DNA of 64,000 nucleotides from Phycisphaeraceae bacterium. Its GTDB lineage: Bacteria; Planctomycetota; Phycisphaerae; Phycisphaerales; Phycisphaeraceae. Below are positions 40,385-54,352 of this stretch, piece by piece. Position 1 is the stretch's first letter, and every line of letters starts with the position of its first letter. The position numbers and the translations under genes are program-made. The stretch lies in assembly GCA_029260715.1 (NCBI GenBank), contig JAJDCS010000039.1, positions 124,001 through 188,000 of the forward strand, written 5' to 3'. The notes under the pieces are model-generated. The model searched no databases. It was not told the origin of the DNA and saw nothing but the letters and a program-made list of their open reading frames with translations.

Positions 40385-41722
40385 TTGTTAGGGAAATCGT
40401 ACACCTCAGTCATTATCTTGTTTGTGGCGCTATTCATGACCGCGGCATCGCTAGGCGGGCCGCTGCACGACGCTGTCGATCGCGACAAACTTACCGAGGT
40501 TGTGTTCTTGATTAAAAACGGTGTAAACGTTAACGGCCAAGACCTAGCCGGCCAAACCCCGTTGCACCGGGCGGCCGCGAAGGGTTACGCGGGCATCGCC
40601 CAGGCGTTGCTGGATCACAAGGCCGACGTGAACGCCCGCGAAAAATCCGGGTGGTCGCCGCTTCACTTCGCCGTGTTCCATGGGCATGTTGATATCGCCG
40701 AGATGCTGTTAGAAAAAGGGGCCAACCTTAACGACCTGCAGCGCGACCAATGGACGCCGCTGCATCTGGCGGTTTCCAATGGGCGTCTGGAAGTCGCCAA
40801 ATGGCTGTTGGCCCGCGGCGCGAAGGTTGACACACGCTCGACTCACGGCGTTACCGCGTTGCACACCGCCGCGGCGAAGGGGCACACCGAGTTGGTGGCG
40901 TTGCTGCTGGATCATGAGGCCGACATCAACACCGCAAGCCAGAACGGGCAGACCCCGCTGCACGCCGCGGTCATGGGCAATCACACAGAGACTATTGACA
41001 CGCTGTTGGCCCGGAGGGCCTCCATCAACGCCATGGACCACGAAGGCTACACACCGCTGTACTTCGCCGTGGAGGCGGGTCGAACCGAATTGACACGGTC
41101 GCTTCTCGATCATGGCGCTGATATAGCGCCGGCCGGCAAAACCGGCCTGACCCTGCTGCACGTCGCCGCACAAGGCGGGCATGCGGGCTTGGTGGCTCTG
41201 CTGATCGAGCGCGGCGCGGCGGTCGATGGGGAAGGCGCCGTGGGCGGCTACACGCCGCTGCACGCCGCGGTGGCGTTCGGCCGTTTGGAAACAGCGGAGG
41301 CACTTCTGAAAAACGGTGCGGACGTAAACCGTAAGAAGCAAAACGGGTGGTCGCCGTTGCACACCGCGGCGCACCGAGGCGACTTGGCGGTCGTCCGGCT
41401 GCTGCTGAACTATGCCGCGGCGGCCAATGCCCAAGCGCCCGACGCCGGCACCCCGCTGCACCTGGCAAGCGAGCAGGGCCACGCGGAGGTGGTGGACTGC
41501 CTGCTGGCTAACGGCGCGCAAGCGAACGTCAAAACAGAAAAAGGCACGACCCCGCTACACCTGGCGGTGGTCCACGGCGACAAGCGTATCACCGAAGCCC
41601 TACTGGACCACGGGGCGGATGTGGACGCGGAAAACGAGAGCGGGCGCACCGCGCTGCAACTGGCGATGCTCAACGGGTCGGCCGACGTAGCCGACGTGCT
41701 GCGCGAACACGCGAACCGCTGA
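40385..41722 (+). CDS. Exported ankyrin-repeat protein 1
   Basis: The 445-residue product starts at TTG with GGGGA ahead. Residues 1-24 form a signal peptide (SVIILFVALFMTAASLGG). The rest is about twelve to thirteen ankyrin repeats of 33 residues, with the usual TPLH-AA--GH and LLL--GA-(D/N) pattern (TPLHRAAAKGYAGIAQALLD). Ankyrin solenoids bind proteins, and here the stack should face the periplasm or exterior. A paralogue with the same layout follows downstream, and both sit between the topoisomerase subunits. No enzymatic domain is present. Confidence 0.9.
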   Translation: MLGKSYTSVIILFVALFMTAASLGGPLHDAVDRDKLTEVVFLIKNGVNVNGQDLAGQTPLHRAAAKGYAGIAQALLDHKADVNAREKSGWSPLHFAVFHGHVDIAEMLLEKGANLNDLQRDQWTPLHLAVSNGRLEVAKWLLARGAKVDTRSTHGVTALHTAAAKGHTELVALLLDHEADINTASQNGQTPLHAAVMGNHTETIDTLLARRASINAMDHEGYTPLYFAVEAGRTELTRSLLDHGADIAPAGKTGLTLLHVAAQGGHAGLVALLIERGAAVDGEGAVGGYTPLHAAVAFGRLETAEALLKNGADVNRKKQNGWSPLHTAAHRGDLAVVRLLLNYAAAANAQAPDAGTPLHLASEQGHAEVVDCLLANGAQANVKTEKGTTPLHLAVVHGDKRITEALLDHGADVDAENESGRTALQLAMLNGSADVADVLREHANR

Positions 41723-41785
41723 AAGCCCCGTCCCCCCCACCACGCGACCCATCGCCCATCACAGGAATGTCAGGGTCTGCTAGGT

Positions 41786-41791
41786 TATAAT
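41786..41791 (+). promoter_or_regulatory. Candidate -10 element TATAAT for the second ankyrin gene
   Basis: A consensus TATAAT lies about 50 bases upstream of ATG 41843 in an AT-rich patch. No good -35 hexamer is seen at 16-18 bases, so it may be a weak or activator-dependent promoter. Confidence 0.35.
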
Positions 41792-41842
41792 AGTAATATT
41801 GCCTAAGGGGCCGGTATCGAGGGGACTAGCAGCGGGCGTGAC

Positions 41843-43504
41843 ATGGGCGACGCGTTGAGGGAATCGAAACTCGTGGGGGGTTGTCGTGTACACACGGTTT
41901 GGATGGTTGGGGTCTGCGCCGCGGCGTGGGCGGCGGTGTGCTTGGCTTCACCCCTGCACGACGCAATCAAGCTCGGCAACACCCAGTCCGTTCGGTCGCT
42001 GATACGCGACGGCACGAGCGTCAACGAACGCGACGGCCACGGCTTCCTCCCGCTGCACCAAGCGGCCCGTTACGGCAGAGCTGAAATCATTGAAGTGTTG
42101 CTGGACGCCGGGGCCGATATCATGGCCACGACCAACAGGGGCGAAACGGCGTTGCACTGGTCCACTGCGTCCGAACAAATCACCACCACACAATTGCTGC
42201 TTGACCGCGGCGCGCCGATCGGGACCGCCGACCAAAACGGCTTTACGCCGTTGCATTGGGCCGCCACCGTTGGGCACGTCAGGGCCATCGAGTTGATGAT
42301 CGACCGGGGCGCGGAGGTTGACCCGGTCGGCAGTGAGGGCCAGACACCGCTGATCGTCGCGGTTGAAAAAAATCAGGACCGGGCCGTGCGCCTGCTTCTT
42401 GACCACGGGGCTAGCGTCAACACCCGGCAGCGGGAAGGGCTTACGCCCCTGCACATCGCGTGTTTCAACGCCAACCCCGAGATCGCGCTGTTGCTGATCG
42501 AGCACGGCGCGGACGTGGACGCCAGACAGAACGAGGGCGTCACACCGCTTCTGACTGTGGCGATCAACGGCAACGCGGCGATGGCCGGGCTGCTGATCAA
42601 CCACGGTGCGAATATCGACTTGAAAGTCACAGGGAATACAACGCTCTACTACGCGGCGCGTAAGGGTCACTACGAATTGGCCAAGCTCCTGTTGAGCAAA
42701 GGGGCCGGCGTGGACATCAAAAACAGGAAGGGGTGGACCCCCTTGCACGTGGCGGCGTTGGAGGGCGAAGAGGTCGTTGCCCAGCTCCTGGTTGAGTACA
42801 AAGCCGACGTCGACGCTCGGGACAACGACGGCGCCCGCCCGCTGCACATCGCCGCCCAGGCGGGGCAGACGAAGCTCGCCGCGGCGCTGCTGGCTCGCGG
42901 GGCCACGGTCGACGCGCCCAGCCACGTCAAAGCCACACCGCTGCACTACGCGGCCCTCAAGGGCCACGCCCAAGTTTCACAGCTGCTTCTAGAAAAGGGC
43001 GCCGACCCCAACGCCCGGAAGGACGACGGCGCCACCCCGCTGCACGTGGCGTGCCTGATGGGATTCCCGGATGTGGTCAAGGTCCACCTGGCCAACGGCG
43101 CCGACATCAACGCCACGGACATACAAAGCGTCAGCGCGCTTCACTACGCAGCCGCTCAAGGTCGCACAGACGCCGCGGCTGTTCTCCTGGAACACGGCGC
43201 CAAAGTTAACATACGCGATAAGCGCGGGACCACCCCGCTGCACGTCGCGGCCAGACAGGGACACAAACACTTTGTGGAGATGCTGATCGAACGCGGAGCC
43301 GACATCAACATGGCCAACAACGGCGGCGTCACCCCGCTACACTTCGCGACCCTGATGGGGCGGCTTGACGTTATCGAGCTTCTGCTGGCACACGGCGCCG
43401 ACGCCAACATCAAAAACAGCGCGGGCGTCTCACCGCTGGATACGGCCAAGCGTAAAGCCCACACCCGGGTTATCCAGCTTCTTGAAGAGTACGGCGCCAA
43501 ATAA
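41843..43504 (+). CDS. Exported ankyrin-repeat protein 2
   Basis: The 553-residue product has a signal segment (HTVWMVGVCAAAWAAVCLA, cleaved near LASP) and then about fifteen ankyrin repeats (for example TPLHWAATVGHVRAIELMI). It begins PLHDAIKLGN after the signal, closely like PLHDAVDRDK of the upstream paralogue. The two therefore arose by duplication and differ mainly in repeat number. The role is probably protein binding in the envelope. A hairpin with the features of a terminator follows the stop. Confidence 0.9.
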   Translation: MGDALRESKLVGGCRVHTVWMVGVCAAAWAAVCLASPLHDAIKLGNTQSVRSLIRDGTSVNERDGHGFLPLHQAARYGRAEIIEVLLDAGADIMATTNRGETALHWSTASEQITTTQLLLDRGAPIGTADQNGFTPLHWAATVGHVRAIELMIDRGAEVDPVGSEGQTPLIVAVEKNQDRAVRLLLDHGASVNTRQREGLTPLHIACFNANPEIALLLIEHGADVDARQNEGVTPLLTVAINGNAAMAGLLINHGANIDLKVTGNTTLYYAARKGHYELAKLLLSKGAGVDIKNRKGWTPLHVAALEGEEVVAQLLVEYKADVDARDNDGARPLHIAAQAGQTKLAAALLARGATVDAPSHVKATPLHYAALKGHAQVSQLLLEKGADPNARKDDGATPLHVACLMGFPDVVKVHLANGADINATDIQSVSALHYAAAQGRTDAAAVLLEHGAKVNIRDKRGTTPLHVAARQGHKHFVEMLIERGADINMANNGGVTPLHFATLMGRLDVIELLLAHGADANIKNSAGVSPLDTAKRKAHTRVIQLLEEYGAK

Positions 43505-50854: not shown

Positions 50855-52990
50855 TTAGAATCGGATCGACACGCCCGCCCCGGCGCCGAAGTCCGAGTGG
50901 TACTGCCCGACGATCGATAGCTCTTTGGTTAGCGTCCACTCCAAACCGGCCAGCCATTCCCAGCGTTCTTCGGTGTCGTATTGGGCTTCGGCGAACGCCG
51001 AGAGGCGGTCCGTGATTTGGATGTCCTTATGCACCGCCGCCCGGAACTCGCCTTCCGTGTCCACCCACAGGCTGCTTTCAATATTGAAAGGCAGCAGGTA
51101 GCGGACGCCGAAGACACCCCGCGTGTGCTCTTCCGTGACATCCACGCCGCCGAACAGCGTTAAGAAACGATCGAAATAACGGTTGTAGGTAGCCTCGACT
51201 TCGAACTGATCGTCGTCGCCTTGGTCCTCCCAGGCCCCTTCCCACTTGACGCTGAATATGTTGCGCGTGTTGGACAGGACGATCTCGCCATCACTCATCT
51301 GCGACAGAAACGCGGCTTGACCCCAGAAGTAAAACGGGTCGTGGTGCATCTCGTTGCCCGGCTCATGGCGGATGGCGGCGATCACGGGGTCGGGCTGTGA
51401 GCCTTCGTAGTGAACGATGCGCGTCATGCCGGACATCATGTGGTACAGCACGTGGCAGTGCATAAACCAATCTTTGTCCTCGCTGCCATAAAACTCAATC
51501 ACTCGCTTGCCGAATGGTGGGATGTCCACGGTGTGCTTGAGCGGGGCGTGGTCGCCTTGGCCGTTGAGCACGCGGAAGAAGTGGCCGTGCAGGTGGATGG
51601 GGTGGTTCATCATCGTCTTGTTCTCGAAGACGATGCGCACGTTCTGGCCCTTGCGCACGACGATGTAATCGGCTTCGGACAGCGTCTTGCCGTTGAACGA
51701 CCAGATGTACCGCTCCATGTCACCGGTGAGGTTCAGGTTGATTGTTTGCCAAGGCCTGTCCGGCGGCAGCGTGGTGGGCTGGGGTGATCGTAGCCGCTCG
51801 TACGGATTACCCGGTCGCGGTGGGTCGGGCTGGCGCGCCGGCGGCTGCATTGCATGACCCCTGCCGTGGTCCATTGCGTGGTGCTCGCCGTGGCCGGTGT
51901 CTTGCTTGGGCATATTCATGTCCGCGTGGCCGCCGTGGTCCATGCCCATGGCGCTGTGTGCTCTGTACAGGTCGGGCTTGGGGATGTCGGGGGCGGCTAC
52001 GCGCTTACCGGTGCCCAGGTAGGCGGACGCGTGCCCCGATCCGTCTTGAGCGGTGGCGCGGAACTCAAACGCCCCACCGCCTTGGGGGATAGTGACCAGC
52101 ACGTCGTAGGTCTCGGCGATCGCCACGAGCATGCGGTCTGTCTCGAATGGCTCAACGTCTAGTCCGTCCGCCGCGACGACACGTATCGGCCCGCCAGCGA
52201 ATTGCAGGTAGAAATATGTCGCCGACGACCCGTTAATGATGCGCAGCAAGACCGTCTGCCCCGGCGCGGCCTCGATCGCGGTTTCCGGTTTGCCGTTGGC
52301 TAAGAAGCGGTCGTAGGCCACATCGGAAATGTCCATCGGCGGCATGCGGTCGAGCGACTGCTGGAGGGTTTCTTTGAGCGCGCCGGTTTGTATCGCCCCG
52401 ATCAGGTTGGGCATCGCCCCTTTTTTGAGCATGTAGTATTCGCTGCCGCGCTTGAGCGTGCGCATCACCTCTTTGGGGTCTTCGTCGGTCCAATCCGACA
52501 GCATGACCACGTGCTCTGCGTCGGCGTGGACGCGTTTTTCTTTGTGATGGATCACGATCGAGCCTAAAACACCCCGCTGTTCCTGGAGGCCTGTGTGGGA
52601 GTGGTACCAGTACGTGCCCGACTGCTTGATCGGGAAGGAGTATGTATAGGTCTGGCCGGGGCGGATCGGCGGTGTAGTCAGGTATGGCACGCCGTCTTCT
52701 TTGTTGGGCAGCAGCAACCCGTGCCAGTGGATGGATGTTTCCACGTCCATGCGGTTGTGGACGCGCACCACGAGGTCGTCGCCTTCGGTCATTTCGAGTG
52801 TTGGGCCGGGGAGCTGCCCGTTGATCGTCATGGCGCGCACGTCTTTGCCGGTGAAGTTGACGGTCTTGTAATCAACGACGAGGTCGTACTCGACGGTCCC
52901 GGCCATAGCGATGCCGCACCACCCTACCAGCAGAGCAAACACGGTTGCGAAATGAACAACCAAAGGTCTTGATTGATTTCTGAGGCGCAT
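50855..52990 (-). CDS. Copper-type multicopper oxidase fused to a C-terminal outer-membrane barrel
   Basis: ATG 52990 is preferred over TTG 53026 and gives 711 residues. Residues 1-30 are a signal peptide. Copper-site motifs are SIHWHG (about 87-92), YWYHSHTG (about 127-134), HPIHLHGHFF (about 462) and WFMHCHVLYHMMSGM (about 510), the full T1/T2/T3 set of CopA-type oxidases. A Met/His-rich insert (MGMDHGGHADMNMPKQ, about 347-385) likely binds copper. From about 550 the sequence changes to alternating amphipathic strands (DPFYFWGQAAFLSQM, RYLLPFNIESSLWVDTEGEF) ending in IRF, a typical barrel terminal aromatic. This part resembles the CopB-type copper outer-membrane protein. The arsI-like gene is divergent. 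Confidence 0.85.
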   Translation of the reverse strand: MRLRNQSRPLVVHFATVFALLVGWCGIAMAGTVEYDLVVDYKTVNFTGKDVRAMTINGQLPGPTLEMTEGDDLVVRVHNRMDVETSIHWHGLLLPNKEDGVPYLTTPPIRPGQTYTYSFPIKQSGTYWYHSHTGLQEQRGVLGSIVIHHKEKRVHADAEHVVMLSDWTDEDPKEVMRTLKRGSEYYMLKKGAMPNLIGAIQTGALKETLQQSLDRMPPMDISDVAYDRFLANGKPETAIEAAPGQTVLLRIINGSSATYFYLQFAGGPIRVVAADGLDVEPFETDRMLVAIAETYDVLVTIPQGGGAFEFRATAQDGSGHASAYLGTGKRVAAPDIPKPDLYRAHSAMGMDHGGHADMNMPKQDTGHGEHHAMDHGRGHAMQPPARQPDPPRPGNPYERLRSPQPTTLPPDRPWQTINLNLTGDMERYIWSFNGKTLSEADYIVVRKGQNVRIVFENKTMMNHPIHLHGHFFRVLNGQGDHAPLKHTVDIPPFGKRVIEFYGSEDKDWFMHCHVLYHMMSGMTRIVHYEGSQPDPVIAAIRHEPGNEMHHDPFYFWGQAAFLSQMSDGEIVLSNTRNIFSVKWEGAWEDQGDDDQFEVEATYNRYFDRFLTLFGGVDVTEEHTRGVFGVRYLLPFNIESSLWVDTEGEFRAAVHKDIQITDRLSAFAEAQYDTEERWEWLAGLEWTLTKELSIVGQYHSDFGAGAGVSIRF

Positions 52991-53290
52991 AACAGTCACG
53001 TTATGCGTGGCAAATGCGGATGACAAGCGACACCGCTCGATCTAAAGGCGAAGCGTCAAGTTACGGCTCTATAAGCCCAGTATTCGTTACAGCCAGGGGT
53101 ATTGCTGGGCAAATCGCTGGCTAGCAGTGACGGGGGTGGCTGGCTCGATTACATATACCAAGTTCGGCACGATCTATTTGTTATCAGCGACTGCGCCAAA
53201 CACTAGGTGAAAGGCTGCGTCTTTTCGGAAGCGGCTCCGTCTATAAAGGTAGGAATGAAACCCGTATTTTCCAATTTAAAGGAGTAAGCC
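52991..53290. other. Divergent intergenic region of the copper/arsenic island
   Basis: These 300 bases separate the divergent multicopper oxidase and arsI-like genes and must hold both promoters. The arsI-like gene has AAAGGAG at the right edge. I find no confident -35/-10 pair and no clear metal-operator palindrome. The TGTTG-N10-CAACA motif of the left end is absent here. Confidence 0.45.
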
Positions 53291-53740
53291 ATGAATCCTC
53301 AACCCTTTGTAGATTTTCCCAACAACAGCCGTATTCACGTAGGGCTAGCCGTTACAGACCTGGAACGGTCTAAACAATTTTACCGTGCGTTATTCGGTAC
53401 GGAACCCGTCAAAGAACGCCCTGGATATGTAAAGTTTGAATCGACCGACCCTTCAGTTAATTTGTCGTTGAATCAAACCGATGCCGAACAAAGACCCATC
53501 AATCCAGCGACGCACTACGGCATACAAGTTAAATCAACACAAGCGGTCGACGAGGCGGCCCGGAGATTTCAAGCCGCGGGCTTAAATACGCTCATGGAAC
53601 GGCACACCACCTGTTGCTACGCTCTACAGGACAAGGCGTGGGTCGTGGACCCTGACGGGAACCGCTGGGAAATCTTTGTGGTTTTGGAGACTAACACGGA
53701 ACACAAGAAAAACGCCAATTCAACCTGTTGTGTCACGTAA
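53291..53740 (+). CDS. ArsI/CadI-family VOC metalloprotein (organoarsenical C-As lyase type)
   Basis: The 149-residue vicinal-oxygen-chelate protein has likely Fe ligands H16 (RIHVGLAVTDL), H75 (THYGIQV) and E127 (DPDGNRWEIF). The vicinal pair C108-C109 (ERHTTCCYALQDKAW) binds trivalent arsenicals in ArsI. A second CC lies near the end (STCCVT). ArsI is an Fe(II) dioxygenase that cleaves C-As bonds; CadI relatives are cadmium-induced. Ideal AAAGGAG precedes the start. A SigZ-like sigma factor starts 42 bases downstream, so they form a likely operon. Confidence 0.9.
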   Translation: MNPQPFVDFPNNSRIHVGLAVTDLERSKQFYRALFGTEPVKERPGYVKFESTDPSVNLSLNQTDAEQRPINPATHYGIQVKSTQAVDEAARRFQAAGLNTLMERHTTCCYALQDKAWVVDPDGNRWEIFVVLETNTEHKKNANSTCCVT

Positions 53741-53782: not shown

Positions 53783-54352
53783 ATGAAACAGAAATTATCC
53801 ACAAAAAGCATATGGGAGCTCCTCAGCGCCAAGCTGAGGGGCTTTATTCTTTCCCGTGTCCACGACGAAAACGTCGCATCGGATTTGGTTCAGGAAACCT
53901 TTCTTCGTATCCATAAGAGCCTGGATACGATCGACGACGATAGCCGGGTCGAGTCCTGGGTCTTTCAGATAGCCAGGCATTTGATCGCGGACTACTACCG
54001 ATCCCAAAAAAAGACGGCTACGCCACTGGGTATTGAACCCGAAAACGGCACCGAAAAATCAGACAACATGAACGACCGTGCCGCTGGCTGGATCGCTGAG
54101 ATGATCGGGCAACTCCCCGACACCTACCGCGAAGCGGTGCGGCTCTATGAGATGGAACACCTACCCCAGCAGGAGATCGCGGACCGCCTGGGGATAACCC
54201 TCTCGGGGACAAAATCCCGGATCCAACGCGGCCGTGAACTCATCAAGGCATCCCTAGACGCCTGCTGCAAATTTGAGTTTGATGCACGCGGCAATATCCT
54301 CGATTATGAAAAGAAGAATACCACGGCTTGTTGCGACACCTGTGATGATTGA
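53783..54352 (+). CDS. SigZ-type sigma-70 family factor with Cys-rich tail
   Basis: The 189-residue factor has sigma region 2 (DLVQETFLRIHKSLDTI, ESWVFQIARHLIADYYRSQKK) and region 4 (LPDTYREAVRLYEMEHLPQQ, then IADRLGITLSGTKSRIQRGRE). The C-terminal tail holds C161-C162 (ACCKFEFDARGNI) and C183, C184, C187 (TACCDTCDD). SigZ family members share the CC-K-F-x-F-D and terminal Cys features. Direct thiol sensing of arsenite, cadmium or similar ions is plausible. No anti-sigma gene is present. It follows the arsI-like gene at 42 bases. Confidence 0.9.
   Translation: MKQKLSTKSIWELLSAKLRGFILSRVHDENVASDLVQETFLRIHKSLDTIDDDSRVESWVFQIARHLIADYYRSQKKTATPLGIEPENGTEKSDNMNDRAAGWIAEMIGQLPDTYREAVRLYEMEHLPQQEIADRLGITLSGTKSRIQRGRELIKASLDACCKFEFDARGNILDYEKKNTTACCDTCDD

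Follow-up and report, generated by a model that had tools for sequence, protein, structure and literature searches.

A gene in a 64,000-nucleotide stretch of a Phycisphaeraceae genome (the window) encodes, in a single chain, a CopA-like multicopper oxidase followed by a C-terminal domain homologous to the outer-membrane protein CopB/PcoB. In textbook bacteria, the oxidase (CopA) and the barrel (CopB) are produced from separate neighbouring genes. In the window protein both halves are joined at a junction that recurs in other genomes, and the chain carries an export signal that is not of the twin-arginine (Tat) type. The protein probably acts as a single-chain PcoA-PcoB (CopA-CopB) unit, in which a tethered oxidase would lie beneath its own copper pore. 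Such an arrangement would tether copper oxidation to the outer membrane.

Architecture of the fused protein

The reading frame (Table 1) is open from 50855 to 53026 on the reverse strand, with neither a stop codon nor a frameshift, and a TTG at 53026 is a possible alternative upstream start. Three Pfam Cu-oxidase domains span approximately the first 535 residues and together hold all the T1, T2 and T3 copper ligands. The four copper motifs (HWHG, WYHSH, HPIHLHG and HCHVLYHMMSGM) are intact in the window protein, and all four patterns are matched by 23 of the 24 full-length fused proteins. The best NCBIfam match of this half is TIGR01480, the CopA subfamily (E 1.4e-124), with a score of 416.7 bits that falls below the cut-off of 478.95, so that the oxidase is CopA-like and not, by rule, a member of TIGR01480. 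Between the middle and the last oxidase domains, as in CopA according to the alignment, lies a His/Met-rich insert of the PcoA/CopA type, which, judging from its sequence, is probably a copper-gathering loop.

Table 1. Features of the fused gene and its divergent neighbours, in window coordinates.
Feature	Position	Strand	Evidence or remark
Multicopper oxidase/beta-barrel fusion gene	50855..52990	-	ATG at 52990, stop at 50855-50857, 711 aa
Signal peptide MRLRNQSRPLVVHFATVFALLVGWCGIAMA	52901..52990	-	Sec-type, without twin arginine; cleavage after ...IAMA by inspection
Cu-oxidase_3, with the HWHG and HSH copper motifs	52538..52876	-	PF07732, E 1.5e-48
Cu-oxidase, middle domain	52040..52516	-	PF00394, E 2.8e-22
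His/Met-rich insert MGMDHGGHADMNMPKQDTGHGEHHAMDHGRGHAMQ	51845..51949	-	Sequence; same place in the CopA alignment
Cu-oxidase_2, with HPIHLHG and HCHVLYHMMSGM, T1/T2/T3 ligands	51413..51742	-	PF07731, E 6.7e-30
Oxidase-barrel linker, about 27 residues, HEPGNEMHHD inside	51332..51412	-	Modelled as disordered, residues 1-16 with pLDDT < 50
CopB/PcoB-like C-terminal barrel	50858..51331	-	Predicted to have 12 strands; C-terminal Phe; 28 acidic and 12 basic residues
ArsI/CadI family heavy-metal resistance metalloenzyme	53291..53740	+	NF041414, 147 bits (cut-off 116)
ECF sigma factor SigZ	53783..54352	+	TIGR02959, 190 bits (cut-off 169)

Past the HCHxxxH motif, the window protein continues for about 190 residues, ending in ...GVSIRF, and the available comparisons support the view that this tail is a distant relative of CopB/PcoB, with a predicted 12-stranded barrel like that of PcoB. 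Against the Pfam CopB family (PF05275), the tail gives an E value of 1.6e-5 over profile positions 24-130 of 208, its 25.0 bits lying just under the gathering cut-off of 27; most of the fused members from Bacteroidota show no match to this family. A profile-profile comparison (hhalign) of 26 fused tails with 12 separate CopBs gives 94.7 % and E 6.4e-8 over 138 columns, at 20 % identity. The profiles are reciprocal, in that the fused-tail set recovers the separate CopBs and vice versa, and the fused-barrel profile matches separate CopBs in the phylum of the closest relative found, a Nitrospiraceae bacterium, with E values down to 2e-8. The tail is also amphipathic: in the 26-sequence alignment, the difference between the lag-2 and lag-1 autocorrelations of hydrophobicity is 0.548, a value reached by none of 5000 shuffles, unlike in the oxidase part, where 347 of 5000 shuffles reach the value obtained in the same test. 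This alternation signal is independent of structure prediction.

The AlphaFold2 model of the barrel contains 12 strands (pLDDT 82) and was built from an alignment of the window protein with one relative from Nitrospiraceae and eight fragments of CopB. These fragments, which a good barrel model required, are N-terminal pieces only, the C-terminal pieces having aligned at the wrong place. Their presence may bias the N-terminal half of the model; for the C-terminal half just two rows contribute, yet its pLDDT is mostly 84-91. When the full-length protein was modelled, the oxidase was obtained and the barrel was not (pLDDT about 30), because only two alignment rows covered it. In a Foldseek search of the PDB, the barrel model has as its first match PcoB (7PGE; E 1.5e-4, the sole match below 1e-3), the crystal structure of which is a 12-stranded barrel (PMC9210255). 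The TM-score to 7PGE is only 0.51. A second structural ranking, to which no weight is given, was led by other barrels (OmpG with Z 15, KdgM and FadL) and did not contain PcoB, and when the PDB was searched by sequence, neither the isolated barrel nor its profile retrieved PcoB or any meaningful match.

An earlier sequence-only reading of this DNA had proposed a gene at 50855-52990, the four CopA copper motifs and an amphipathic tail of about 160 residues with a terminal aromatic residue and a likeness to CopB, and in all these respects it is borne out. Its estimate of about eight strands is not supported, since the AlphaFold2 model has as many as PcoB.

The two kinds of oxidase also differ in their export signals. 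A pair of arginines before the hydrophobic core is found in none of the 24 fused proteins and in 10 of the 17 separate CopAs (full-length genes; Fisher p 1.7e-5, which overstates the contrast because the sequences are related), although for two of the 24, L088 and L091, the stretch used stopped short of a clear signal core; the contrast is, moreover, confounded by ancestry, as the fused proteins all belong to a single clade and seven of the separate CopAs also lack the arginine pair. Outer-membrane barrels require unfolded Sec export, so that the absence of a Tat signal is a requirement of a working fusion. PcoA has been reported as a Tat substrate (PMC7558416), and the separate CopA encoded elsewhere in the window's genome has a twin-arginine signal (RRDLLIAA) that the fused protein lacks.

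Distribution, ancestry and genomic setting

The closest relative found, in a Nitrospiraceae metagenome-assembled genome, is 58 % identical along the fusion, and its gene has a frameshift near the oxidase start, away from the junction. The fused barrel is present in 2 of 294 sampled genomes of the window's own phylum and in 5 of 198 of the phylum of the Nitrospiraceae relative (frames of 663-806 aa), where separate CopBs, with frames of about 290-430 aa, account for the weaker matches. Among 247 genomes sampled from Bacteroidota, the phylum of a Lentimicrobiaceae locus, the barrel profile has matches in about 43, one of them weak, and the strong matches are nearly all terminal in frames of 710-966 aa. 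Bacteroidota often carry the fusion, and its occurrence in other phyla is scattered; it is genuine and useful, not unique. The statement of the sequence-only reading that CopA and CopB are usually separate is too general, as it fails for the sampled Bacteroidota, in which the barrel is nearly always fused. Two of the Bacteroidota matches (G425:C11:105115-105729 and G390:C16:142931-143539) occupy short frames of 481 and 479 aa, respectively, which are possibly split or truncated fusions or have another N-terminal partner. Viral contigs searched with the barrel gave no match.

The same junction recurs in several phyla and on finished replicons, and all the fused proteins inspected have 179-216 residues after the HCH motif and an aromatic C-terminal residue. 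Finished plasmids with the fusion come from Hymenobacter, Spirosoma, Pontibacter, Mucilaginibacter, Fibrella, Bernardetia and Ilyobacter polytropus (Fusobacteriota), and several of these plasmids are mobilizable or conjugative. The conjugative plasmid pILYOP02 of I. polytropus, an anaerobe, bears the fused gene together with a second, separate multicopper oxidase gene and a cupredoxin gene. In the Bacteroidota proteins L088 and L091, CPMHPEI...CPKCGMKLV repeats precede the oxidase and resemble heavy-metal-binding domains; if they are such domains, these proteins would be three-part fusions. The CopA of another relative (L026, G003:C2:17277-21386) is found in an unusually long frame of 1449 aa without a C-terminal barrel and with a separate CopB frame nearby, and the N-terminal excess of this frame may be read-through of a GC-rich frame.

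In a tree of the oxidases, 25 fused and 17 separate proteins fall on opposite sides of one branch with a support of 100/100, in a tree without a root and with a separate set chosen for its similarity to the window protein, which means that sampling was not neutral. The window protein clusters with the Nitrospiraceae protein and with a second protein from the window's own phylum (G147). This single-branch split suggests one old fusion followed by transfer. A recent fusion of the host's own copA-copB was also considered and is rejected, as fused and separate oxidases lie across the 100/100 branch.

Next to the fused gene in the window lie the divergent metalloenzyme and sigma factor genes of Table 1 and, on the downstream side and tail to tail, a SpoIID/LytB-domain gene. 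This setting is one of metal resistance and not a copper operon. The metalloenzyme and sigma factor genes make up a small metal-resistance module in a stretch of lower GC. Across the ArsI/CadI gene and the upstream intergenic region, the GC content is 0.51, compared with 0.60-0.66 around them, and this stretch may be an acquired segment. Elsewhere in the window, two adjacent forward-strand genes (40385-43504) encode proteins of 445 and 553 aa that consist mostly of ankyrin-type repeats and have signal-like N-termini; this pair is flanked by gyrase/topoisomerase-like genes. The fused genes of relatives have as neighbours copper P-type ATPases, four-helix copper-binding proteins, DUF305 proteins and metal sensors.

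With regard to separate CopBs, a search with PF05275 in 24 other genomes that carry the fusion gave no match at E 0.01, while the positive control was matched in Caulobacter; the fusion therefore stands in for CopB in those genomes. The window's genome is the exception, since on its contig C25 a canonical copA-copB pair with overlapping genes (copB, E 4.5e-68) shares a copper island with an RND pump and a copper P-type ATPase. Small Met-rich and Cys-rich proteins, a sigma factor, a flavin/ferredoxin reductase and multihaem-like proteins are also encoded in this island (L099, G000:C25:26000-42000).

Probable function of the fused oxidase

In two-gene systems, Cu(I) is oxidised by PcoA. In the single-chain unit, the Sec pathway would export the chain unfolded, the C-terminal part would form a 12-stranded barrel in the outer membrane, its two ends facing the periplasm, and the oxidase would fold and take up copper in the periplasm, directly below the pore. 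There, the oxidase would use O2 to convert Cu(I) to Cu(II), which is less toxic, and the acidic barrel would move copper across the outer membrane, most likely as Cu(II) and in the outward direction. The covalent link would substitute for the docking which, in two-gene systems, the disordered PcoB N-terminus is held to provide, and would fix the ratio of oxidase to pore at 1:1. In Caulobacter, this N-terminus stabilises PcoA and has been proposed as its docking site (PMC12509749). PcoB forms an electronegative pore, for which export has been argued in Caulobacter (PMC12509749) and import in E. coli (PMC9210255). Besides the weak CopB score and the low TM-score of the barrel, the position of the gene outside a copper operon and the presence in the genome of a copA-copB pair in the copper island count against the single-chain copper unit. 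A narrower proposal, to be held only tentatively, is product channelling, whereby Cu(II) leaving the oxidase would be passed straight into its own pore and expelled, an arrangement that would have needed a switch from Tat export (folded) to Sec export (unfolded).

The barrel could instead be an anchor only, holding the oxidase at the outer membrane and conducting no copper. It is shorter than CopB (about 160 residues compared with 208), is far from it in sequence (20 % identity) and contains only 3 His and 1 Met, all of which would suit a plain anchor. This reading is nevertheless unlikely, given that the predicted number of strands equals that of PcoB (PMC9210255), that the barrel is rich in acidic residues like the PcoB pore, and that a separate CopB is absent from the 24 fused genomes.

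It is less probable still that the main substrate is Fe(II), Mn(II) or an organic compound, admitted from outside by the barrel, so that the protein would be a porin-oxidase unit for extracellular oxidation. Multicopper oxidases accept broad substrates, the window gene lies apart from the copper island of its genome, and separate PcoAB pairs have been proposed as a porin-multicopper oxidase system that oxidises Fe(II), although the same study also allows for metal detoxification (PMC5566968). Copper is favoured by the nearest characterised families, which are copper-resistance proteins, by the PcoA-type His/Met-rich insert and by the copper gene clusters in which the relatives sit.

Very improbable is a display system resembling an autotransporter, in which the 12-stranded barrel would carry the N-terminal oxidase to the cell surface. 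The order of passenger and 12-stranded barrel and the terminal aromatic residue do resemble type V secretion, and the structural comparison lists, among general barrels, that of the autotransporter BrkA (Z 11.7); the Pfam search, however, gave no autotransporter family match, the top Foldseek match is PcoB, and the linker is modelled without a pore-plugging helix. Finally, a joining of two genes through sequencing or assembly error, for which only the draft state of the genome (44 contigs) could be adduced, is refuted because many unrelated genomes and finished plasmids show the same junction; the frame is, besides, open throughout.

Comparison with known systems

Whether PcoA and PcoB form a physical unit, and whether PcoB is an exporter or an importer, are unsettled questions. 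A natural fusion is strong genetic evidence that oxidase and channel act jointly at 1:1, and a single-chain protein lends itself to structural work and flux assays. A question of biogenesis also arises, because the Tat route is not readily open to a multicopper oxidase that ends in an outer-membrane barrel, and the fused proteins do carry Sec-type signals.

With PcoA/CopA and PcoB/CopB, the window protein shares the modules and their order, the copper ligands, the His/Met-rich insert and the predicted 12-stranded barrel. It differs from them in being one chain, in having a shorter and only distantly similar barrel, and in its Sec-type, not Tat-type, signal. The N-terminal domain of CopB/PcoB, about 75 residues that are disordered and rich in His and Met, is absent from the window protein, which has the linker of about 27 residues instead.

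The same architecture is found in G2EDV6 of Bizionia argentinensis, a marine flavobacterium, which was described in one sentence in 2024 as a multicopper oxidase whose residues 611-809 are porin-like and somewhat similar to PcoB (PMC11213822). A literature search for CopA-CopB or PcoA-PcoB fusions, covering few subscription journals, returned only this paper and no functional study. In databases, the fused proteins are named merely 'multicopper oxidase domain-containing protein', and many entries under this name are probably outer-membrane proteins. The PcoA-PcoB kind is thus known, the fused form is widespread but unstudied, and the window gene is a rare representative from outside Bacteroidota.

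Two other fusions offer partial parallels. The PcoCD fusion YcnJ of Bacillus subtilis likewise joins pco neighbours, but these are a copper chaperone and an inner-membrane permease. Cyc2 of iron oxidisers likewise places a redox domain on an outer-membrane barrel, but this domain is a cytochrome of unrelated sequence, and it is electrons, not metal, that are thought to cross.
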